Source: Xestospongia muta (Eukaryota > Porifera > Demospongiae > Haplosclerida > Petrosiidae). From it: a stretch of 64,000 nucleotides of DNA. The notes under the pieces are model-generated. The model was not told the DNA's origin and did not search any database. It was given only the letters and a program-made list of their open reading frames with translations. The number at the start of each line of letters is the position of its first letter. The first letter of the stretch is position 1. The DNA lies in NCBI GenBank assembly GCA_963693285.1, contig OY848924.1:129001-193000 (forward strand). Direction: 5' to 3'. Positions 6,413 to 61,924 of this stretch are shown piece by piece. A program made the position numbers and the translations under genes.

Positions 6413-8608
6413 TTAATGAAAATATTGTTGAGAAAGTTCCATAAAAACTGGATTAACAACTTCATCATTAATCATTTTAATAATTTGATCTGGTTGTTGA
6501 AAGAAATAAAGTGGATTGAGAGCACCAAACCCTTCATCATCAGTGTGTCGACCAGGACATGTGCTTATTTTACGAAGAATTTCCTTCATAACCCAGTGAT
6601 TTTTATATTGCTTTGCTACCTGAACACTGTGAGGCAGGTTGCTTATACCAATGCGATTGATGTACTCTAAGATAAGGCAAACAAGACCTGCAACAGCTGG
6701 GGCAGCATAAGATGTACCACTATCTACAGCTACATGGTTGGCTATCATGCTATTAGGTGCAGCTACACATTCACCTGGTGCCAAAAAGTCAATGTCCTGA
6801 CCAACTGGAGAGAAAGAAGAAGGTTTCCCATGAGGACCATGAGATCCAATACATAGCACATGACCTAGACGAGCTGGGAAACAGATTGGCTGACTATACT
6901 GACGACCATAATTACTGGCAGCACAAACAATTATAACTCCATTACTGACAAGATCATTGATAGCATCAACAACATCTAATGAGATACCTAGAGATCCCAT
7001 AGAAAGAGAAACTACATCAATACGTTTTTGTTGTTCTTTATTATTTTTGCCAATCCACCTCAATGCATTAGCTACAGCAAATGATGTTGCTGTATTTGAA
7101 GCACCTGATGTCACTTTGCAGACTACAAGATTAGCATCTGGTGCTACTCCACTTGGAAAGATATTGATCTCACTAACTAATTCATTTTGTGGATCAGGAT
7201 AATAATCAAAGGGTTTACCACACAGTATTCCAGCGCAAATAGTTCCATGACCAACCATATCTATATTTATAACATCACCTGTAAAGTTATAAGCTTTTGA
7301 GGTATTTCCAAAGGCATAATGAGGACTTATTCCGCTATCGACTATAGCAACGGTTACGCCTTTCCCAGTAAACCCCTTGCTGTGAATTTTTTCAAGATTC
7401 CAATACTTGTAAGCAGTGAAGTTTGAAGACCCCGGTGAATATGGTACCATCAAATGAAAATCAAAAGCGAAAACTTGACTTTGTGGGTCCTGCAATCCTA
7501 AATTTTTTGGAATGGCTATTTTTGCCTTGCTCGATGGTTCGGCTACAGATCCTCTCTTCTTTTTGGTATTTGATTTCTTATCTGCAGGTGGCTTTTTAAC
7601 CTTCTTTTCTTTTTCTTTCTTTTTGTCACTTTTATAAGAGACTATCAACTTTGAATTGAGTCTCACTTTAGGCTTTTCAACTTCTTCTGTAACCTTCTTT
7701 TGAATGACATCTTCGAGCTTCTTTTTAAGAGCAGCATTGGATTCTACTGAGTCATTGGTATGAAGACAGATCTCCTTTGGTTTGTATACAAGCAAAGGGT
7801 CAACAACATGAACAAGATCATCATGTGATATTTTCTGGTCTTTAGCTGAGAATTGTAGTTTTATCTCATGAAACCGAGGACTCTTTTTTTCACAAAACTC
7901 ATTCTCTAGTCCACACATCACTACTTTAAGAAGGTCTATTCGCATTTCAGGAAAAACTACTTTGGGCACTTTTAATTGACAAGTCTTAGTCATGATTTTG
8001 GCCAAAATGCGTGTCAACAGATCAGTGTTATCCTGCAGTTTACTTCCATACGATGATGGTAAAGTGAGATCAAGTTTATCCACAGTGACTTTTGCAGTCA
8101 AACGACAATTTTCAATTGCTCTATTGAAGTAGTCCTCCAAAACTTTTGAAAGGTCAACTGTTACAAGCAGCTTTTGAGCTGCCACTTGAGGAGGCAAAAG
8201 ATGAATAAGTTTTATGTTTACATCAATTGGATTGTTATCAGCATTAGGATCATTCTGGTCCTCCACTACTGGCTCACTTGATGGTTGGACGTTACCTGGT
8301 GTCTCTGAGCCATTATGACTCTCTTGTACTTCACTACTACGATTGTTATCAGCATTAGGATCACTTTGGTCCTCAACTGGCTCGCTTGATAATTGGTTGT
8401 TACCTGGTGTCTCTGAGCCATCATGACTTACTTCAGGATTAGGTTCATTGAGAGAAGGCACAGTTGATGTTGATGGGTTGTCACTACCTTCTAATGATGT
8501 ACTAGGCTCACGATCACATCTACTACGTTTGGGTGATGGTTCTTCAGTATCACTGTCACTATCAGTTGATTCACTGCTAGAGTCAGTAGCTATCTCCAAT
8601 GCTGACAT
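6413..8608 (-). CDS. Subtilisin-like serine protease with long N-terminal region, copy B
   Basis: 731 residues in one uninterrupted frame. Residues 1-130 are acidic and Ser-rich with a twice-repeated block (GSETPGN ... DPNADNN). Residues about 130-290 form a domain shared with the protease at 11774-13489 (both start near LLPPQ/ILPPK) that I do not recognise. Residues about 328-352 are a Lys-rich tract that could be a nuclear signal. The S8 catalytic domain follows with Asp424, His454, Asn566 and Ser633 in standard motifs. There is no signal peptide, so an intracellular place is likely, unlike secreted or proprotein-convertase subtilases. The ATG at 8608 is the only Met before about residue 206. 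It is more diverged than copies A and C. Confidence 0.85.
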   Translation of the reverse strand: MSALEIATDSSSESTDSDSDTEEPSPKRSRCDREPSTSLEGSDNPSTSTVPSLNEPNPEVSHDGSETPGNNQLSSEPVEDQSDPNADNNRSSEVQESHNGSETPGNVQPSSEPVVEDQNDPNADNNPIDVNIKLIHLLPPQVAAQKLLVTVDLSKVLEDYFNRAIENCRLTAKVTVDKLDLTLPSSYGSKLQDNTDLLTRILAKIMTKTCQLKVPKVVFPEMRIDLLKVVMCGLENEFCEKKSPRFHEIKLQFSAKDQKISHDDLVHVVDPLLVYKPKEICLHTNDSVESNAALKKKLEDVIQKKVTEEVEKPKVRLNSKLIVSYKSDKKKEKEKKVKKPPADKKSNTKKKRGSVAEPSSKAKIAIPKNLGLQDPQSQVFAFDFHLMVPYSPGSSNFTAYKYWNLEKIHSKGFTGKGVTVAIVDSGISPHYAFGNTSKAYNFTGDVINIDMVGHGTICAGILCGKPFDYYPDPQNELVSEINIFPSGVAPDANLVVCKVTSGASNTATSFAVANALRWIGKNNKEQQKRIDVVSLSMGSLGISLDVVDAINDLVSNGVIIVCAASNYGRQYSQPICFPARLGHVLCIGSHGPHGKPSSFSPVGQDIDFLAPGECVAAPNSMIANHVAVDSGTSYAAPAVAGLVCLILEYINRIGISNLPHSVQVAKQYKNHWVMKEILRKISTCPGRHTDDEGFGALNPLYFFQQPDQIIKMINDEVVNPVFMELSQQYFH

Positions 8609-11255: not shown

Positions 11256-11704
11256 GGTTATATCTATATGCTGTTCATAAATGATCTGCAATGAGTCTTG
11301 GGAATTAATCTTGTAGTAACACAGAAGAGACACCATCTTTCACATTTGTTTCAGTTATTGAACATAAACTACAAAGAGTACTCTTTGGCTTCTAGTTGAC
11401 TTTATACACATCAAGTTAGACCAGTTTTGGCTTAGTGGCAACTCAATATTGGGCTTACATTATATTGATGACATTATGATAACAAAGACATGAAATGAAA
11501 TGACAAAATACTATTTCAAGTGTTTGTACTTGACTACTGGTTCTAGTTCAGTTGAAATAATATCCATCTCTTGCTCATCGCTTCAATTGTTGATAGCCTT
11601 GGACACTATATTATTAACCATCTCTTATGTAGAACATGTACATGTGACTGACTGACCAATTGTTGGTTAGGAATGTACTGTCACTACTGTGGGGGTGTAT
11701 TGTG
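11256..11704. other. Upstream flank of protease C, with duplicated segment
   Basis: No gene seen. Bases 11387-11473 (GACCAGTTTTGGCTTAGTGG and around) recur at 2537-2632 inside the enlarged intron of broken JmjC copy A, showing that promoter-side protease DNA was moved in the rearrangements. Confidence 0.55.
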
Positions 11705-11750
11705 TATAAAATATATAAATTAGCACATTCCACACCATACACATCAGTTT
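11705..11750 (+). promoter_or_regulatory. Core promoter of protease C (TATA and initiator)
   Basis: TATAAA occurs at 11705-11710 and again at 11714-11719. A TCAGTTT initiator-like sequence has its A at 11746, 32 bp from the second TATA. This places transcription start just before the ATG at 11774 and decides the start codon of the protease. Confidence 0.5.
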
Positions 11751-11773
11751 GCATGCAGCACATCTTATCTGCA

Positions 11774-13489
11774 ATGACTTCAAAACAAACCAGTAGTGAG
11801 ACAGAAGAGACACTACCTGTCAAAGTTGGTAAAGACGATCCAGATGAAGACTTATTTCAATCACCAGGACCCAGCATAGATCCTGATATAGAAGAACAAG
11901 CTATCCTTAAATTGACTGATATTTTGCCCCCAAAAATTGAAGTACGTGTGCTAGAAACACAGCAAGACTTCCGGGATCAAATCTATCTAACTGTTAAGAC
12001 CAGACTGGAGCAGTCCCTGTCATCAGAACAAACCAGTTATGAAGAATTAAATTTGGAACTTCCAGAAGCTTATAAACGTAAGCTAGATCATGACTTGTTG
12101 CAAAGAATTTGTGCTCTTTTTTTTGAAAAAGTCAAAAAGGCAAAAAGATTACGGCTACCAAATCTAAATGAAATTGAGCTTATTAGAATGATTAAGCACA
12201 GCAACCTTAATATTAGTGGAGATTATGAGAAAATTATAGTTCCGTTCTTAATAACAAGACAACATTGTTATGATTTAAGCATCGAGCTGATTAATAATTG
12301 TTCATCTATTCAGGAAATACACTTTCAACCTTCCTACAGTGAAAATAACGATAAGAGAGAGGTGCAAAATCTTGTATCAAGAATAAAACAAAACACTAGC
12401 CGTGATATAGTCATCAAAATTGATTCACCTGCATCACCCAAGAATGGTACAACCATCAAAGAAACAATAAACAAGACTGCTTACACCTTTGATCAGTGTT
12501 ACCAAGGCCCACAATTAGGAGGTCAATATATCATGTTTACTGCTTACGATTACTGGGATATCGGTTACATTCATGAAATGGGGATAACAGGAGAAGATAT
12601 TACAGTAGCTGTTGTGGATAGTGGACTTGATTATTCCCATCCAGCATTTTATCTTAAAGAAAATATTGAATTCAAGGATTGCACTAGGAGTTTCTTGGGT
12701 ACTAATGATACCGATGGTCATGGTACTATGTGTGCAGGCATTATATGTGGTGATGCTTTTGAATATAGTAAGAGCCCAGATTCAAATGCAGAAGTAGAGA
12801 TGCTGGAAACATTTCCTCCTGGTATCGCAAACAAAGGAAAGCTAGTTGTATACAAAGTGTTCTCTGGTTACTATGCATCAAATGAAGCAATTTGTACAGC
12901 TTTACAAGATATTGAAAGGAGGGGAGATATTGATGTTGTTTCTCTTTCTCTTGGTTCATTAGCATTCACATTTTCAATCGCTGAAGCTATTTCAAATCTT
13001 GTTAGTAAACGTGTGATAGTAGTTTGTGCTGCCAGTAACTATGGTAACAAGTATATCCAACCAATTGCCTTTCCAGCTCGACTAGGACATGTATTAAGCA
13101 TAGGGTCCCATGATGAAAGTGGGAAAACCTCTCGTTTTTCTCCAGTAGGTCAACAAATCGACTTTCTAGCTCCAGGTGAAGAAATAACAGCGCCATGCAG
13201 TACTTATTATCACCATTACATTAAAGTAAATAGTGGTACATCATTTGCTGCTCCTGCAGTAGCTGGTCTTATTTGTTTGATCCTTGATTATATCAAGAAA
13301 CATTATCCTGATGTACTACGCCATTTTAAGTGTCATTGGGTGATGAAAGAGTTATTGCGTGAAATCAGTACATCTCCAGGTCGACCTACTGATGACCAGG
13401 GATTTGGTGCACTTGATCCAACACGTTTTTTCAAACAGCCAGAACGCTTTGTGGAGTACATCATGTCAGAGGTTCTTGATACACAATGA
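11774..13489 (+). CDS. Subtilisin-like serine protease, copy C
   Basis: 571 residues with no introns. The ATG at 11774 (MTSKQTSSETEE) is preferred over the in-frame ATG at 11660, because a TATA box and initiator lie between them and the upstream codons would be promoter. Residues about 50-240 form the unrecognised N-terminal domain shared with protease B; the S8 domain follows with Asp282, His316, Asn422 and Ser490, all in canonical motifs. No signal peptide. Nearly identical to copy A across the catalytic domain, which indicates recent duplication. It converges with the intact JmjC gene, 114 bp away. An intracellular subtilase of unknown substrate. Confidence 0.88.
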   Translation: MTSKQTSSETEETLPVKVGKDDPDEDLFQSPGPSIDPDIEEQAILKLTDILPPKIEVRVLETQQDFRDQIYLTVKTRLEQSLSSEQTSYEELNLELPEAYKRKLDHDLLQRICALFFEKVKKAKRLRLPNLNEIELIRMIKHSNLNISGDYEKIIVPFLITRQHCYDLSIELINNCSSIQEIHFQPSYSENNDKREVQNLVSRIKQNTSRDIVIKIDSPASPKNGTTIKETINKTAYTFDQCYQGPQLGGQYIMFTAYDYWDIGYIHEMGITGEDITVAVVDSGLDYSHPAFYLKENIEFKDCTRSFLGTNDTDGHGTMCAGIICGDAFEYSKSPDSNAEVEMLETFPPGIANKGKLVVYKVFSGYYASNEAICTALQDIERRGDIDVVSLSLGSLAFTFSIAEAISNLVSKRVIVVCAASNYGNKYIQPIAFPARLGHVLSIGSHDESGKTSRFSPVGQQIDFLAPGEEITAPCSTYYHHYIKVNSGTSFAAPAVAGLICLILDYIKKHYPDVLRHFKCHWVMKELLREISTSPGRPTDDQGFGALDPTRFFKQPERFVEYIMSEVLDTQ

Positions 13490-44290: not shown

Positions 44291-47198
<2,908 letters not shown>

Positions 47199-47451
47199 TA
47201 ATAAAGCATCTTTTTCAAGTTATGAACTTTTCATAGTGACATTTCATCTTATCATCAACCTTTATCTCATTGACTAATCACATCACACTAACAACAACAC
47301 TAACATATTGAAATTGTGTGTGTATGTTATTGAAATTTCTGTATATTTACAGTTAAAACTTGCTAATAGTAATTAATCATCCAAATTTAGGCGTATCCTC
47401 ATGGTTAATAACTTATCATAAAAAGGTGTGGCTGGTTAATAGAGCGCTTCA

Positions 47452-47473
47452 TGACGTCACGAATATGACGTCA
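47452..47473. promoter_or_regulatory. Twin CRE palindromes, selenoprotein copy 1
   Basis: TGACGTCA at 47452-47459 and 47466-47473, 14 bp apart, about 65 bp before the ATG. A CREB/ATF-type consensus, conserved in the array. Confidence 0.65.
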
Positions 47474-47537
47474 CGTTACTTCTGTACAAAAGATAAGTTA
47501 CCCACGTTCTTCTATACAGACTGCAGTTATAGTGTCA

Positions 47538-49063
47538 ATGATGGCAACGTCTTTAGAAGAAGCTCCCACGACTCCAGAGGTATCTCCATCAACAGAAGGA
47601 GCAACTGCTGCTTGTTTAACAAGTAATGGAGAAGATTTGATCGGTCTCTTTAATGAAACAGTTGCTGAGAATTCTGCAACTTTTGTGATTTTTTATCGAG
47701 GAGTTTGGTGACCTTACTGCAGGGTATGATAGAGACATCCGTCCATTGACCATATATCTGTCCATATATCTGTCCATTGTCCGTCTATTCATCCATTTAT
47801 CCTATTAGGCCTATCTCAATGAGTTCAATGGACTTATGGATGAGATCAAGGCCAAAGGGTTGGGGATTTTTGCCGTGTGTGCTCAAGAACAAAATGATGT
47901 TGACCAGATGATGAATGACTACAATCTTCAGTTTAAAGTGAATAGATACAGACACAAACTATGAACAGATAGTATTAACATGTACATGTAGAATGTGTCA
48001 TCTTGGATTAATCCATCCATCCATCCATTTATTCTTTCATTCGTCCATTCATCACTAGTTTTTTAGCTACATGTAACAGCTGTCATTGAATTTCTATTCT
48101 AGTTATATAATCCATACTAACTTATTATACCACATGTATTAACTACTGATATTGTGGGTAATATATTGCCAAGGACACTTGGCTACAGTCAGCATAGCAG
48201 ACACTTATACACTAAACACACTATATGGCTTCATTGAGGAGCTGTAACTTTGTGTTTTGTGATGATATTAGCTTAATAATAACACCTGTGTATCATTGTC
48301 TCATTTCCTCATTTCCTCTAACTTATTATACCACTTGTATTAACTACCGACATAGTGGATATAGTGGATAATATACTCATACTGTCAAAGATACTTGGCT
48401 ACAGTCAGCATAGCAGACACTGTTATACTCTAAACACCAATATATGGCCTCAATAATGAGTGGTAATTGATATTGTCACATTAATAAGTTTGTGTTTTGT
48501 AATGACATTAGCTTAATAGAAACATCTATGTATAACCGTCTCATTTCCTCTTATTTCATTTCCTCTATTTCATTTCCTGTATTAGTGTTATTCAGATCCA
48601 ACACATACTTTGAGAAATTATCTCAATGAACAAGGATATATTACAGTGAGGATATCTGGTGGAGAGAACTCGACTGATTCTAATTTTTACAAAGTCCATC
48701 CTAAAATTAAACAATACAAATATGGTGTCGTCCAACCTGGTAAGACTGGTTTTAAAAACAGGTTTAGTTAACTAGTTTTATTTTAGCTGTGTTGTGTATT
48801 ACCAAAGAAAAGAAAGTTCTATTTGCTTGGGCTATTGAACCAAGCAAGGTTTGTTCATAACATTGTACAATGATTTATCCATCTTGTTATTTATTATTTT
48901 TATGTTTTTTCAGATGAATGTGGGCGGAGCATCAGATCGTCCAGTTCCTGCCGATATCTGGACAATAGTTCAGAACAAATTAGATAATCCTGATGATGAC
49001 ACACCTATTGACTATGGTCGTCTACGTGTCCGTGGTGCAGGCTCTATTTGTACTATTTTATAA
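47538..49063 (+). CDS. Peroxiredoxin-like selenoprotein, copy 1
   Basis: Five exons (47538-47723, 47809-47937, 48586-48739, 48787-48848, 48914-49063) splice in frame to 226 residues if TGA at 47709-47711 is read as selenocysteine 58. The motif FYRGVW-U-PYCRAYLNEF is the AhpC/TSA-like FYRGxWCPYC active site with U for the first Cys; Cys61 is the partner. Downstream are YGVVQPAVLCITKEKKVLFA and WAIEPSKMNVGGASDRPVPA. Coding continues through TGA with matching phases, all four copies keep TGA, and a SECIS-like hairpin follows at 49225-49278. Probably a thiol/selenol redox enzyme, related in design to SelL-type proteins (UxxU), though here UxxC. The start is MMATSLEEAP. Confidence 0.88.
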
Positions 49064-49224
49064 ACAGCTATAATTTGTAGTGAGTTAGCCCCTGTCATAC
49101 TTAACTTTAATTAAATACATCAATATAATTGGAATACAATGTCAATAGTCAGTACTTTTGTCTATAAAGTTTTATTTTTAATATAACAGTGTTTCTGTCT
49201 ATACTCTGTTATATTTGTTATGTT

Positions 49225-49278
49225 ATGATGAGAGATATACTAAACCTGTTGCTATGACAACGGAGTGATCTCTCTGAT
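49225..49278 (+). promoter_or_regulatory. SECIS-like element, copy 1
   Basis: In the 3' untranslated region, 162 bases after the stop. ATGA (49225-49228) and TGAT (49275-49278) form the non-Watson-Crick quartet. GAGAGAT (49230-49236) pairs perfectly with ATCTCTC (49268-49274). The unpaired AAA at 49242-49244 lies 13 nt from the quartet, followed by a small GTTG/CAAC stem as in form 2 SECIS. Confidence 0.8.
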
Positions 49279-49521
49279 GTATTATTATAACATGTATAAC
49301 AGAGTCATGGACAATATCCTTTGCTGTTAAAAATAAGTATTGCCGTTAAAATTTGATAGTAAATTGTGTAAAAAAATGAGAATGCTTGTTCAATTTTTTG
49401 ATAGAGGTTGTGTATACAGTATATTTAAGATATCTTATCATAAAATAATTTATTTACTAACTCATTGTGATTTATAAAACAAAACATTAAACAAGTTACA
49501 TTGAATAGAATACATTGTATA

Positions 49522-49970
49522 TTATGATAAACGTTTTATTGGTAATAAAAATGAGATCGACTTCTCTCTCAATATACCAGTAACATTTGATATCTCAGGA
49601 CTATCCCCAACTTGTCTCTCAACAACTAATTTATCAACTTTTTTACTCTCTACTTCTTTAATATCTTTTTCTTTTTCTTGAAATACTTTTTTCTGATGAT
49701 GTCTTGTTGTAACTTTAACTTGTTCTTCTTTGTGGCTCTTCAAAAAACTGTCTACATTTGATATAACAAGTTTAAACTGAGTTTCAAGGTCTACTATCCT
49801 CTCTTTAGTTTTATGAATGTGACTTTTAAAATGAGGTAAGTCTCTCTGATAACAAGTTAACCCTCTCCCTCACTTGTTTCACCCTCACACCTTTATCAGT
49901 AGCTTCAGATCGTAACTGAGTCTCCTAATATCATAATATCATGAATACATTGATACATTATATCTTATCA
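49522..49970 (-). pseudogene. Captured 3' fragment of coiled-coil gene (1)
   Basis: The minus strand encodes the last-exon sequence of the gene at 57393-61757 (ETQFKLVISNVDSFLKSHK ... ILREKSISFLLPIK) joined at about 49845-49855 to a more 5' exon segment (58496-58625 of the parent). The exons between are missing. The joint sits in shared TCTCT. Confidence 0.8.
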
Positions 49971-50174
49971 TCAACCTTTATCTCATTGACTGATCATATT
50001 ATACTAACAACAACACTAACATATTGAAATTGTGTGTGTATATTATTGAAATTTCTGTATATTTACAGTTAAAACCTGCCAATGGAGTGCTAGTAATTAA
50101 TCGTCCAAATTTAGGGGTATCCTCATGGTTAATAAGTTATCATAAAAAGGTGTGGCTGGTTAAAGAGCGCTTCA

Positions 50175-50182
50175 TGACGTCA
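50175..50182. promoter_or_regulatory. Single CRE palindrome, selenoprotein copy 2
   Basis: TGACGTCA once, 66 bp before the ATG. The 14-bp segment with the second site is deleted in this copy only. Confidence 0.6.
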
Positions 50183-50247
50183 CGTTACTTCTGTATGCAA
50201 AAGTAAGCTACCCACGTTCTACTATACAGACTACAGTTATAGTGTCA

Positions 50248-51773
50248 ATGATGGCAACGTCTTTAGAAGAAGCTCCTACGACTCCAGAGGTATCTCCATC
50301 AACAGAAGGAGCAACTGCTGCTTGTTTAACAAGTAATGGAGAAGATTTGATCGGCCTCTTTAATGAAACAGTTGCTGAGAATTCTGCAACTTTTGTGATT
50401 TTTTATCGAGGAGTTTGGTGACCTTACTGCAGGGTATGATAGAGACATCCGTCCATTGACCATATATCTGTCCATATATCTGTCCATTGTCCGTCTATTC
50501 ATCCATTTATCCTATTAGGCCTATCTCAATGAGTTCAATGGACTTATGGATGAGATCAAGGCCAAAGGGTTGGGGATTTTTGCCGTGTGTGCTCAAGAAC
50601 AAAATGATGTTGACCAGATGATGAATGACTACAATCTTCAGTTTAAAGTGAATAGATACAGACACAAACTATGAACAGATAGTATTAACATGTACATGTA
50701 GAATGTGTCATCTTGGATTAATCCATCCATCCATCCATTTATCCTTTCATTCGTCCATTCATCACTAGTTTTTTAGCTACATGTAACAGCTGTCATTGAA
50801 TTTCTACTCTAGTTATATAATCCATACTAACTTATTATACCACATGTATTAACTACTGATATTGTGGGTAATATATTGCCAAGGACACTTGGCTACAGTC
50901 AGCATAGCAGACACTTATACACTAAACACACTATATGGCTTCATTGACGAGCTGTAACTTTGTGTTTTGTGATGATATTAGCTTAATAGTAATACCTGTG
51001 TATCATTGTCTCATTTTCTCATTTCCTCTAACTTATTATACCACTTGTATTAACTACCGACATAGTGGATATAGTGGATAATATACTCATACTGTCAAAG
51101 ATACTTGGCTACAGTCAGCATAGCAGACACTGTTATACTCTAAACACCAATATATGGCCTCAATAATGAGTGGTAATTGATATTGTCACATTAATAAGTT
51201 TGTATTTTGTAATGACATTAGCTTAATAGAAACATCTATGTATAATCATCTCATTTCCTCTTATTTCATTTCCTCTATTTCATTTCCTGTTTTAGTGTTA
51301 TTCAGATCCAACACATACTTTAAGAAATTATCTCAATGAACAAGGATATATTACAGTAAGGATATCTGGTGGAGAGAACTCGACTGATTCTAATTTTTAC
51401 AAAGTCCATCCTAAAATTAAACAATACAAATATGGTGTCGTCCAACCTGGTAAGACTGGTTTTAAAAACAGGTTTAGTTAACTAGTTTTATTTTAGCTGT
51501 GCTGTGTATTACCAAAGAAAAGAAAGTTCTATTTGCTTGGGCTATTGAACCAAGCAAGGTCTGTTCATAACATTGTACAATGATTTATCCATCTTGTTAT
51601 TTATTATTTTTATGTTTTTTCAGATGAATGTGGGCGGAGCATCAGATCGTCCAGTTCCTGCCGATATCTGGACAATAGTTCAGAACAAATTAGATAATCC
51701 TGATGATGACACACCTATTGACTATGGTCGTCTACGTGTCCGTGGTGCAGGCTCTATTTGTACTATTTTATAA
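50248..51773 (+). CDS. Peroxiredoxin-like selenoprotein, copy 2
   Basis: Same five-exon structure as copy 1, with the recoded TGA at 50419-50421 and stop at 51771-51773. The protein appears essentially identical to copy 1, and even introns differ at few positions, so this is the youngest duplication or has been homogenised by gene conversion. The SECIS at 51935-51988 is identical to that of copy 1. Only one CRE remains upstream, so expression may differ. Intron 2 keeps the internal direct repeat of about 190 bp (GGCTACAGTCAGCATAGCAG in each half). Confidence 0.87.
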
Positions 51774-51934
51774 ACAGCTATAATTTGTAGTGAGTTAGCC
51801 CCTGTCATACTTAACTTTAATTAAATACATCAATATAATTGGAATACAATGTCAATAGTCAGTACTTTTGTCTATAAAGTTTTATTTTTAATATAACAGT
51901 GTTTCTGTCTATACTCTGTTATATTTGTTATGTT

Positions 51935-51988
51935 ATGATGAGAGATATACTAAACCTGTTGCTATGACAACGGAGTGATCTCTCTGAT
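51935..51988 (+). promoter_or_regulatory. SECIS-like element, copy 2
   Basis: Same 54-nt core as copy 1: ATGA quartet at 51935, AAA in the apical part, TGAT ending at 51988. Confidence 0.8.
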
Positions 51989-52231
51989 GTATTATTATAA
52001 CATGTATAACAGAGTCACGGACAATATCCTTTGCTGTTAAAAATAAGTATTGCTGTTAAAATTTGATAGTAAATTGTGTAAAAAAATGAGAATGCTTCTT
52101 CAATTTTTTGATAGAGGTTGTGTATACAGTATATTTAAGATATCTTATCATAAAATAATTTATTTACTAACTCATTGTGATTTATAAAACAAAACATTAA
52201 ACAAGTTACATTGAATAGAATACATTGTATA

Positions 52232-52665
52232 TTATGATAAACGTTTTATTGGTAATAAAAATGAGATCGACTTCTCTCTCAATATACCAGTAACATTTGA
52301 TATATCAGGACTATCCCCAACTTGTCTCTCAACAACTAATTTATCAACTTTTTTACTCTCTACTTCTTTAATATCTTTTTCTTTTTCTTGAAATACTTTT
52401 TTCTGATGATGTCTTGTTGTAACTTTAACTTGTTCTTCTTTGTGGCTCTTCAAAAAACTGTCTACATTTGATATAACAAGTTTAAACTGAGTTTCAAGGT
52501 CTACTATCCTCTCTTTAGTTTTATGAATGTGACTTTTAAAATGAGGTAAGTCTCTCTGATAACAAGTTAACCCTCTCCCTCACTTGTTTCACCCTCACAC
52601 CTTTATCAGTAGCTTCAGATCGTAACTGAGTCTCCTAATATCACAATATCATGAATACATTGATC
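52232..52665 (-). pseudogene. Captured 3' fragment of coiled-coil gene (2)
   Basis: Same chimeric arrangement and same junction as the fragment at 49522-49970, with a few substitutions (GDSPDISN for GDSPEISN). The shared junction shows one original event copied with the array. Confidence 0.8.
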
Positions 52666-52884
52666 CATTATATCTTATCATCAACCTTTATCTCATTGAC
52701 TGATCACATCACACTAACAACAACACTAACATATTGAAATTGTGTGTGTATATTATTGAAATTTCTGTATATTTACAGTTAAAACCTGCCAATGGAGTGC
52801 TAGTAATTAATCGTCCAAATTTAGGGGTATCCTCATGGTTAATAACTTATCATAAAAAGGTGTGGCTGGTTAAAGAGCGCTTCA

Positions 52885-52906
52885 TGACGTCACAAATATG
52901 ACGTCA
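52885..52906. promoter_or_regulatory. Twin CRE palindromes, selenoprotein copy 3
   Basis: TGACGTCA at 52885-52892 and 52899-52906, same 14-bp spacing as copy 1. Confidence 0.65.
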
Positions 52907-52974
52907 CGTTACTTCTGTATATACAAAAGATAAGCTACCCACGTTCTTCTATACAGACTACTGTTATAGTGTTA

Positions 52975-54500
52975 ATGATGGCAACGTCTTTAGAAGAAGC
53001 TCCTACGACTCCAGAGGTATCTCCATCAACAGAAGGAGCAACTGCTGCTTGTTTAACAAGTAATGGAGAAGATTTGATCGGTCTCTTTAACGAAACAGTT
53101 GCTGAGAATTCTGCAACTTTTGTGATTTTTTATCGAGGAGTTTGGTGACCTTACTGCAGGGTATGATAGAGGCATCCATCCATTGACCATATATCTGTCC
53201 ATATATCTGTCCATTTTCCGTCTATTCATCCATTTATCCTATTAGGCCTATCTCAATGAGTTCAATGGACTTACAGATGAGATCAAGGCCAAAGGGTTGG
53301 GGATTTTTGCCGTGTGTGCTCAAGAACAAAATGATGTTGACCAGATGATGAATGACTACAATCTTCAGTTTAAAGTGAATAGATACAGACACAAACTATG
53401 AACAGATAGTATTAACTTGTACATGTAGAATGTGTCATCTTGGATTAATCCATCCATCCATCCATCCATCCTTCCATTCATCCATTCATTCAAGTTTTCT
53501 AGCTACATAGAACAGCTGTCCTTGAATTTCTACTCTAGTTATATAATCCATACTAACTTATTATACCACATGTATTAACTACTGATATTGTGGGTAATAT
53601 ATTGCCAAGGACACTTGGCTACAGTCAGCATAGCAGACACTTATACACTAAACACACTATATGGCTTCATTAACGAGCTGTAAGGTTGTGTTTTGTGATG
53701 ATATTAGCTTAATAATAACACCTGTGTATCATTGTCTCATTTCCTCATTTCCTCTAACTTATTATACCACTTGTATTAACTACCGACATAGTGGATAATA
53801 TACTCATACTGTCAAAGATACTTGGCTACAGTCAGCATAGCAGACACTGTTATACTCTAAACACCAATATATGGCCTCAATAATGAGTGGTAATTGATAT
53901 TGTCACATTAATAAGTTTGTGTTTTGTAATGACATTAGCTTAATAATAACATCTATGTATAATCATCTCATTTCCTCTCATTTCATTTCCTCTGTTTCAT
54001 TTCCTGTATTAGTGTTATTCAGATCCAACACATACTTTAAGAAATTATCTCAATGAACAAGGATATATTACAGTGAGGATATCTGGTGGAGAGAACTCAA
54101 CTGATTCCAATTTTTACAAAGTCCATCCTAAAATTAAACACTACAAATATGGTGTTGTCCAACCTGGTAAGACTGGTTTTAAAAACAGGTTTAGTTAACT
54201 AGTTTTATTTTAGCTGTGCTGTGTATTACCAAAGAAAAGAAAGTCATATTTGCTTGGGCTATTGAACCAAGCAAGGTTTGTTCATAACATCTTAAAAAAT
54301 TGTACATTGATTCATCTATTTTGTTATTTATTATTTTTATGTTTCTTCAGATGAACATGGGTGGAGCATCAGATCGTCCAGTTCCTGCCGATATCTGGAC
54401 AATAGTCCAGAACAAGTTAGATAATCCTGATGATGACACACCTATCGACTATGGTCGTCTACGTGTCCGTGGTGCAGGTTCTGTTTGCACTATTTTATAA
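52975..54500 (+). CDS. Peroxiredoxin-like selenoprotein, copy 3
   Basis: Five exons as in copy 1; recoded TGA at 53146-53148; stop at 54498-54500. Small protein differences (NGLTDEIK for NGLMDEIK; KMNMGGASDRP for KMNVGGASDRP) show it is older than the copy 1/copy 2 split, while the active site, splice sites and TGA are unchanged. SECIS at 54662-54715, twin CREs upstream. Confidence 0.87.
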
Positions 54501-54661
54501 ACACCTATAATTTGTAGTGAGTTAGCCCCTGTCATACTTAACTTTAATTAAATACATAAATATAATTGGAATATAATGTCAATAGTTAATACTTTTGTCC
54601 ATAAAGTTTTATTTTTAATATAACAGTGTTTCTGTCTATACTCTATTATATTTGTTATGTT

Positions 54662-54715
54662 ATGATGAGAGATATACTAAACCTGTTGCTATGACAACGG
54701 AGTGATCTCTCTGAT
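54662..54715 (+). promoter_or_regulatory. SECIS-like element, copy 3
   Basis: Core identical to copy 1 across the quartet, helix and AAA. Confidence 0.8.
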
Positions 54716-54959
54716 GTATTATTATAACATGTATAACAGAGTCATGGACAATATCCTTTGCTGTTAAAAAAAAGTATTGCTGTTAAAATTTGATAGTTAA
54801 ATTGTGTAAAAAAATGAGAATGCTTGTTCAATTTTTTGATAGAGGTTGTGTATACAGTATATTTAAGATACCTTATCATAAAATAATTTATTTACTAACT
54901 CATTGTGATTTATAAAACAAAACATTAAACAAGTTACATTGAATAGAATACATTGTATA

Positions 54960-55375
54960 TTATGATAAACATTTTATTTGTAATAAAAATGAGATCGACT
55001 TCTCTCTCAATATACCAGTAACATTTGATATCTCAGGACTATCCCCAACTTGTCTTTCAACAACTAATTTATCAACTTTTTTACTCTCTACTTCTTTAAT
55101 ATCTTTCTCTTTTTCTTGAAATACTTTTTTCTGATGATGTCTTGTTGTAACTTTAACTTGTTCTTCTTTGTGGCTCTTCAAAAAACTGTCTACATTTGAT
55201 ATAACAAGTTTAAACTGAGTTTCAAGATCTGCTATCCTCTCTTTAGTTTTACGAATGTGACTTTTAAAATGAGCTAAGTCTCTCTAATAACAAGTTAACC
55301 CTCTCCCTCACTTGTTTCACCCTCACACCTTTATCAGTAGCTTCAGATCGTAACTGAGTCTCCTAATATCACAAT
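54960..55375 (-). pseudogene. Captured 3' fragment of coiled-coil gene (3)
   Basis: Third copy of the same chimeric fragment, slightly closer to the parent gene (for example GCTAAGTCTC at the junction). Not an independent gene. Confidence 0.78.
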
Positions 55376-55611
55376 ATCATGAATACATTGATACATTATA
55401 TCTTATCATCAACCTTTATCTCATTGACTGATCATATTATACTAACAACAACACTAACATTGAAATTGTGTGTGTATATTATTGAAATTTCTGTATATTT
55501 ACAGTTAAAACCTGCCAGTGGAGTGCTAGTAATTAATCGTCCAAATTTAGGGGTATCCTCATGGTTAATAACTTATAATAAAAAGGTGTGGCTGGTTAAT
55601 AGAGCGCTTCA

Positions 55612-55633
55612 TGACGTCACAAATATGACGTCA
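55612..55633. promoter_or_regulatory. Twin CRE palindromes, selenoprotein copy 4
   Basis: TGACGTCA at 55612-55619 and 55626-55633. Confidence 0.65.
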
Positions 55634-55699
55634 CGTTATTTTGTATATGCAAAAGTAAGCTACCCACGTTCTTCTATACAGACTACAGTTATAGTGTCA

Positions 55700-57001
55700 A
55701 TGATGGCAACGTCTTTAGAAGAAGCTCCCACGACTCCAGAGGTATCTCCATCAACAGAAGGAGCAACTGCTGCTTGTTTAACAAGTAATGGAGAAGATTT
55801 GATCGGTCTCTTTAACGAAACAGTTGCTGAGAATTCTGCAACTTTTGTGATTTTTTATCGAGGAGTTTGGTGACCTTACTGCAGGGTATGATAGAGGCAT
55901 CCGTCCATTGACCGTATATCTGTCCATTGTCTGTCTATTCATCCATTTATCCTATTAGGCCTATCTCAATGAGTTCAATGGACTTATGGATGAGATCAAG
56001 GCCAAAGGGTTGGGGATTTTTGCCGTGTGTGCTCAAGAACAAAATGATGTTGACCAGATGATGAATGACTACAATCTTCAGTTTAAAGTGAATAGATACA
56101 GACACAAACTATGAACAGATAGTATTAACATGTACATGTAGAATGTGTCATCTCGGATTAATCCATCCATTCATCCATTTATCCTTTCATTCGTCCATTC
56201 ATCACTAGTTTATGTAACAGCTGTCCTTGAATTTCCACTCTAGTTATATAATCCTTACTAACTTATTATACCACATTTATTAACTACCGACATAGTGGAT
56301 AATATACTCATACTGTCAAAGACACTTGGCTACAGTCAGCATAGCAGACACTGTTATACTCTAAACACCAATATATGGCCTCAATAATGAGTGGTAATTG
56401 ATATTGTCACATTAATAAGTTTGTGTTTTGTAATGACATTATAACTTAATAGTAACATCTATGTATAATCATCTCATTTCCTCTTATTTAATTTCCTCTA
56501 TTTCATTTCCTGTTTTAGTGTTATTCAGATCCAACACATACTTTAAGAAATTATCTCAATGAACAAGGATATATTACAGTGAAGATATCTGGTGGAGAGA
56601 ACTCGACTGATTCCATTTACCATGTCTACATAATCCATCCTACAATTAAACATTACAAATATGGTATCATCCAACCTGGTAAGACTGGTTTTAAAACAGG
56701 TTTAGTTAACTAGTTTTATTTTAGCTGTGCTGTGTATTACCAAAGAAAAGAAAGTCATATTTGCTTGGGCTATTGAACCAAGCAAGGTTTGTTCATAACA
56801 TTGTACAATGATTTATCCATCTTGTTATTTATTATTTTTATCTTTCTTCAGATGAATGTGGGCGGAGCATTCGATCGTCCAGTTCCTGCCGATATCTGGA
56901 CAATAGTTCAGAACAAGTTAGATAATCCTGATGATGACACACCTATTGACTATGGTCGTTTACGTGTCCGTGGTGCAGGTTCTGTTTGCACTATTTTATA
57001 A
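55700..57001 (+). CDS. Peroxiredoxin-like selenoprotein, copy 4
   Basis: Same five exons, with the recoded TGA at 55871-55873 and stop at 56999-57001. The most diverged copy: exon 3 reads DSIYHVYIIHPTIKHYKYGI instead of DSNFYKVHPKIKQYKYGV, and exon 5 has GGAFDRP. Intron 2 is shorter because only one of the two internal repeat halves is present. W-TGA-PYC is kept despite this drift. It lies next to the intact coiled-coil gene, so it probably marks the founding end of the array. SECIS at 57163-57216. Confidence 0.86.
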
Positions 57002-57162
57002 ACAGCTATAATTTGTAGTGAGTTAGCCCCTGTCATACTTAACTTTAATTAAATAAATCAATATAATTGGAATATAATGTCAATAGTCAATAATTTTTTT
57101 CCATAAAATTATATTTTTAATATAACAGTGTTCTGTCTATACTCTATTATATTTGTTATGTT

Positions 57163-57216
57163 ATGATGAGAGATATACTAAACCTGTTGCCATGACAACA
57201 GAGTGATCTCTCTGAT
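57163..57216 (+). promoter_or_regulatory. SECIS-like element, copy 4
   Basis: Quartet, GAGAGAT/ATCTCTC helix and AAA are unchanged. Substitutions fall in the apical loop (CTATGA to CCATGA) and just after the small stem (CAACGG to CAACAG), where SECIS elements tolerate change. Confidence 0.78.
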
Positions 57217-57392
57217 GTATTATTATAACATGTATAACAGAGTCATGGACAATATCCTTTGATGTTAAAAATAAGTATTGCTGTTAAAATTTGATAAATT
57301 GTGTAAAAAATGAGAATGCTTGTCCAATTTTTTTATAGAGGTTGTGTATACAGTATATTTAAGATATCTTATCATAAAATATTTTATTTATA

Positions 57393-61757
<4,365 letters not shown>

Positions 61758-61924
61758 TATCCTGTTGCTTGTAACTATAGCAACATGTGGGCGTGGCTTG
61801 TCCATAACGAGAGGCGTGTCCTGCATAGCTAAGCTGCTGGTCACGAGCCCTTTTGTGCAGGAAAACTGAAATATAGTGAACTTGCTGATCAAAGCCGTCT
61901 CTAATTGATATAACTTTATTTAAC
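61758..61924. promoter_or_regulatory. Divergent promoter coiled-coil gene / TBC gene
   Basis: GTAACTATAGCAAC at 61771-61784 resembles an RFX X-box with one mismatch, 14 bp before the tentative coiled-coil start. The opposite gene begins at 61925. Confidence 0.45.

Follow-up and report, generated by a model that had tools for sequence, protein, structure and literature searches.

Four tandem AphC-like genes of the sponge Xestospongia muta with an in-frame TGA probably read as selenocysteine

Introduction

AphC-like selenoproteins, termed sponge-specific, were described by Jiang, Ni and Liu in 2012 (PMC3473315). The excerpted text of that paper lists for A. queenslandica two tandem genes with two coding exons each, Aq.AphC.like_a and b, and one gene with five coding exons, Aq.AphC.like_c, on a scaffold other than that of a and b; relatives are given for Oscarella carmela and Suberites domuncula. 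We examined a stretch of 64,000 nucleotides of the Xestospongia muta genome (C8:129001-193000, contig OY848924.1; in the following, the window), in which four tandem genes carry an in-frame TGA within an AhpC/thioredoxin (Trx)-like domain (Pfam). The sequence evidence makes it very probable that these are c-type sponge AphC-like genes whose UGA is read as selenocysteine (Sec) by means of a selenocysteine insertion sequence (SECIS) element. A reading of the family as new is not supported, since AphC-like selenoproteins have been in print since 2012 (PMC3473315).

Like the Aq.AphC.like family, as far as the excerpts describe it, the genes combine a Sec codon in an AhpC-like/Trx-like domain, a SECIS element and the five coding exons of form c. 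Unlike A. queenslandica with its one c gene, the window holds four tandem c-type copies; the kinship is judged by description and exon number. The CaaX-like tail found here is unmentioned in the excerpted AphC-like account of PMC3473315. For the sponge family neither a four-copy array nor such a tail was reported in open-licence PMC papers among the matches listed.

Further systems are comparable in parts. AhpC_b of Thalassiosira oceanica is described in excerpts as a UxxC selenoprotein with AhpC-TSA domain and prokaryotic Cys relatives (PMC7539508); it is a single diatom gene and is likened to the sponge family by description alone. MIEN1/Rdx12, according to the excerpted sources, is Trx-like, related to the SelW2 selenoprotein family and geranylgeranylated at the CaaX end CVIL (PMC6738349, PMC3316567). 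It is the Cys form of another family, whereas here the Sec form would bear the tail. Bcp/PrxQ and AhpC peroxiredoxins have the fold in common with the window proteins, but the Sec site differs.

New are the four c-type copies arisen by tandem 2.7-kb duplication, the conserved CaaX-like tail and the alignment of Sec with the first Cys of CxxC sites. At this locus a selenoprotein family described as sponge-specific can be viewed at chromosome scale. Annotation easily misses the family, since gene callers break off or begin at the UGA.

Gene structure and comparison of the copies

Four genes of five exons lie head to tail on the plus strand at 47538-57001 (exons rebuilt by script):

47538..49063, plus strand: copy 1, exons 47538-47723, 47809-47937, 48586-48739, 48787-48848, 48914-49063; Sec-TGA 47709-47711
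50248..51773, plus strand: copy 2, exons 50248-50433, 50519-50647, 51296-51449, 51497-51558, 51624-51773; Sec-TGA 50419-50421
52975..54500, plus strand: copy 3, exons 52975-53160, 53246-53374, 54013-54166, 54214-54275, 54351-54500; Sec-TGA 53146-53148
55700..57001, plus strand: copy 4, most diverged, exons 55700-55885, 55959-56087, 56519-56678, 56725-56786, 56852-57001; Sec-TGA 55871-55873

Exon lengths are 186/129/154/62/150 bp in copies 1-3, exon 3 measuring 160 bp in copy 4. GT-AG borders were found in all 16 introns, and TAA terminates all four coding sequences. The product has 226 residues (copy 4: 228) with Sec at codon 58, and the active site reads FYRGVW-TGA-PYC, i.e. R-G-V-W-U-P-Y-C. 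The four copies and the TGA-to-TGA distances of 2710, 2727 and 2725 bp named in the first-pass annotation were reproduced exactly on rebuilding. Its further statements also held: reading frame, splicing and exon order continue intact beyond the TGA for 168 codons (170 in copy 4), and the diverged copy 4 keeps its TGA and its frame despite the changes in exon 3.

Copies 1 and 2 encode the identical protein, with 98.4-100% identity in each exon. Exon 3 of copy 4 shows 92.9% identity to each other copy and is longer by 6 nt, in frame. After the TGA the proportion of nonsynonymous differences (pN) was 0.0139 and that of synonymous differences (pS) 0.128 for copies 1 and 3; for copies 1 and 4, pN was 0.0315 and pS 0.091, with the replacements clustered in exon 3. 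Upstream of the TGA no replacement was found in any of the six copy pairs. In the local cluster in exon 3 of copy 4 (56519-56678), SIYHVYIIHPT replaces SNFYKVHPK with the frame kept.

The near identity of copies 1 and 2, together with the single c gene reported for A. queenslandica in the excerpts of PMC3473315, could mean that only one or two genes exist and that the array is an artefact of assembly, e.g. of merged haplotypes. However, indels and substitutions distinguish the units, with intron 2 lengths of 648, 648, 638 and 431 bp in copies 1 to 4, and the array lies within an 8.28-Mb contig of an assembly of 28 contigs. We regard an artefact as rather unlikely.

If the TGA were a true stop, the loci would be pseudogenes or would encode a peptide of 57 residues, and gene callers do end at this codon. 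Intact codons after the TGA and GT-AG introns in four of four copies speak against this, as does pN below pS wherever replacements occur.

Relatives and the Sec column

The spliced protein with Cys written at the TGA served as query; phmmer retrieved 18 proteins, and 71 came from a profile search (alignment A1), altogether 72 distinct relatives, which were all checked for the active-site pattern RG-x-W-C-P-Y/F-C. Cys occupies the Sec column in 16 of the 72, as CP(Y/F)C. Looking for Cys or U at this column had been proposed as a check in the first-pass annotation, and these 16 relatives answer it with Cys. Seven of them carry fungal names (Cadophora, Exophiala (2), Fusarium (2), Mollisiaceae and Oidiodendron); the nine without organism name were judged to be six bacterial and three fungus-like proteins. 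All Cys relatives were thus judged non-sponge, and no protein among the 72 that was judged sponge-type showed Cys at the site.

Two relatives differ at the site itself. P0016 comes from a different contig (ENA, 194 kb); its sequence stops at FYRGVW, as expected also for a true stop. P0001 has Trp at the Sec column; its frame of 235 residues, from a contig of 1083 bp, continues past the site. The active-site pattern was absent from 54 of the 72 relatives. P0002-P0014 begin 13, 22, 27 or 39 residues past the site, as expected for open reading frame (ORF) callers that meet an in-frame stop. Beyond the TGA these proteins show 55-73% identity, a further argument against a true stop. Many of the remaining proteins are short pieces of a single exon. 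Named sponge proteins among the relatives were P0014 (Em0023g89a), presumably from Ephydatia muelleri according to this prefix, and P0052 (A. queenslandica). Searches of genome contigs gave six pattern matches with two relatives, both cyanobacterial with WCPYC; 12 pattern matches in viral contigs included no relative.

Removal of the TGA by splicing was considered as well. In copy 1 the 60 nt ahead of the TGA contain four GT dinucleotides, counted without splice-site scoring, of which three would keep the frame. The in-frame TTT/GTGATT, with 39 nt removed, resembles the real intron 2 donor AAA/GTGAAT. In contrast, the GT closest to the TGA breaks the frame, and each in-frame GT would remove the UPYC site, which is kept as CP(Y/F)C in the 16 Cys relatives. 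Furthermore, the frame of P0001 passes through the site uninterrupted. Such splicing is extremely improbable.

SECIS elements and tRNA-Sec

A SECIS-type element begins at nucleotide 162 past the stop in all four 3' untranslated regions. It has the form AUGAU-GAGAGAU...AAAC...AUCUCUC-UGAU (AUGA type) in every copy:

49225..49278, plus strand: SECIS core of copy 1, AUGAU ... AAAC ... UGAU (pattern scan and predicted fold)
51935..51988, plus strand: SECIS core of copy 2 (pattern scan)
54662..54715, plus strand: SECIS core of copy 3 (pattern scan)
57163..57216, plus strand: SECIS core of copy 4, differing from the other cores at two places in the apical part (pattern scan and predicted fold)

The pattern was fixed after the element was known. 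It comprised RUGAN, AA 9-12 nt on and NGAN, with a duplex of at least 10 of 12 positions paired, one irregularity allowed, and at most -8 kcal/mol. On both strands of the window five matches were obtained, four being the elements of the gene copies, and a total of 10 matches arose in 20 dinucleotide-shuffled versions of the window. A first, cruder scan had missed the four elements and matched other sites. The weight of the SECIS evidence is the position after each stop. Such an element behind every copy is another argument against a true stop, which we consider highly unlikely.

In the host genome (158 Mb) one match to tRNA-Sec exceeded the Rfam cut-off (78 vs 47 bits), with four weaker ones below. 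The same locus is named tRNA-Sec by ARAGORN, with anticodon tca. Sec insertion is thus supported by the SECIS-type elements, the genomic tRNA-Sec, Cys in 16 relatives and a published family of the same exon number.

Several results count against it. Some duplexes in the shuffled sequences reached -13.2 kcal/mol and were stronger than the real one (-11.1 kcal/mol). The four SECIS elements are copies of each other and therefore one observation, not four. A SECIS was not detected by Rfam, either in the window at gathering score or at E<=10 in 47400-60500, where its eight matches were IsrM, snR4 and MIR159, all far under the gathering scores. The tRNA-Sec search also exceeded the cut-off in 5 of 14 control genomes and gave matches in 14 of 14 at a loose threshold. 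According to the excerpts of PMC3473315, the SECIS of Aq.AphC.like_c was placed under GUGA, in contrast to AUGA here. The Trp of P0001, judged from the protein alone, is probably a TGA read by code 4, and introns or contig ends could equally account for the late starts of the database proteins.

Two-exon paralogue on the same contig

The search of the genome with the protein gave 22 matches among the best-scored candidates, 20 of them exons of the four genes. The other two are exons of one further gene, L011 (C8:101732-102469 in the protein search, C8:101738-102469 as locus; minus strand), which lies on the opposite strand of the same contig, upstream of the array at a distance of about 74 kb; it is the one two-exon paralogue among these candidates. 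L011 has two coding exons, its own in-frame TGA in the motif YFRGKW-TGA-PFC and no CaaX-like tail. A GUGA-type SECIS about 108 nt past its stop was spotted by eye and then folded. The pattern scan missed this element because its AA lies 13 nt beyond the quartet. P0052, the a/b-like fragment of A. queenslandica, showed 62% identity to L011 over 68 residues. Matched by exon number, the window genes correspond to the c type and L011 to the a/b type of the AphC-like family.

Fold, active site and proposed reaction

The lists obtained with Foldseek/VIA were dominated by peroxiredoxins, without excluding other families. In profile alignments Sec falls on the first Cys of ResA-type, thioredoxin-like CxxC sites. 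In a weak profile alignment to Bcp (2cx3), Sec stands opposite Ser and not opposite the peroxidatic Cys, which is aligned with the site's second position (PYC). The earlier designation as peroxiredoxin-like therefore holds for the fold; for the position of Sec it does not, as judged from this weak alignment. The separation of UxxC from the UxxU of SelL was confirmed, with U-P-Y-C as site and the SelL-related profile under its cut-off.

Three known families were rejected. SelL has UxxU instead of UxxC, and NF040769 (SelL-related) scored 24.7 bits at a cut-off of 120. For SelU/PRXL2, AhpC-TSA_2, which we take to be the PRXL2-type Pfam model, was not among the six Pfam matches at E<=1, where the HMMER filters drop most weak matches. 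The active site of typical peroxiredoxins is PxxxT/SxxC; this motif is absent from the window genes, which have R-G-V-W-U-P-Y-C.

In the proposed mechanism UGA codon 58 would be translated as Sec, directed by the SECIS from nucleotide 162 past the stop. The product would be an oxidoreductase of peroxiredoxin fold with a U-P-Y-C site. As in CxxC oxidoreductases, Sec may attack a disulphide or a peroxide; the intermediate would then be resolved by the Cys that follows three residues later.

C-terminal tail

The c-type tail consists of a basic stretch, a frequent Cys at -7 and a CaaX-like end, which is C-T-I-L in the window genes. Cys at -4 was found in all four copies and in 21 of the 23 homologue tails selected (25/27), I/L/V at -2 in 26 of the 27 and Leu at -1 in 19. 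This suggests lipid anchoring: the basic stretch with its C-T-I-L end may be geranylgeranylated and would hold the enzyme on the cytosolic membrane face. There it could act as a reductase of hydroperoxides, membrane-proximal or lipid, or of protein disulphides.

Other observations argue against an anchor. Thr, which is not aliphatic, stands at -3 in 16 of the 27 tails. It is outside the aliphatic list in the excerpts of PMC6738349, whose table nonetheless has RhoB ending in CKVL. P0010 and P0021 have no tail Cys, the same applies to five a/b-like proteins (P0025-P0028 and L011), and prenylation is deduced from the motif only. We therefore propose only tentatively, with slightly more doubt than confidence, that c-type sponge proteins are prenylated, membrane-anchored Sec oxidoreductases. 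They would be a Sec counterpart of MIEN1, possibly a defence against lipid hydroperoxides parallel to GPX4, and amplified fourfold here. Prenyl anchoring, if true, would put Sec chemistry at sponge membranes.

Origin of the array

Self-blastn delimited the repeated units and the recurring pieces of a putative neighbouring gene:

47239..55392, no strand assigned: three duplicated units, each about 2.7 kb long, with starts near 47239, 49955 and 52666
57389..58628, minus strand: end of a putative convergent gene, coiled-coil-like by eye (gene and strand inferred)

The fourth unit starts at about 55393 and continues into the neighbouring gene. Two pieces of this neighbour, 57389-57716 and 58497-58628, recur joined between the copies at 49518-49972, 52228-52682 and 54956-55410. 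Therefore the duplicated unit of 2.7 kb took along the gene, its upstream region, the SECIS and the rearranged end of the neighbour. The neighbour's ORF 61113-61892, the one ORF scanned, matched no Pfam family. Within intron 2 of copies 1-3 a segment of about 200-240 bp is duplicated (copy 1: 48117-48557); in copy 4 it seems to be single.

A strong selenium demand, as read from the four copies in the first-pass annotation, could not be upheld, because the copies are a local duplication with scraps of the neighbour and a larger gene cluster has been published. The excerpts of PMC3473315 report six deiodinase genes in Trichoplax, with only three strong SECIS among them. Duplication of the unit would raise the dosage of near-identical products. 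The near-identical UGA/SECIS copies are a natural set for dosage and read-through tests.

Other features of the window

Long uninterrupted ORFs of subtilase type were found at 39-1241, 6413-8608 (minus strand) and 11660-13489. The latter two contain Peptidase_S8 (Pfam), and 39-1241 is similar by eye. Self-blastn also showed a direct-repeat block at 46302-46783 with GGTCTGGGTATGAGACTATTTCAGTAGTACTCTTATT-like units, just upstream of exons that are TFIIS-like by eye.

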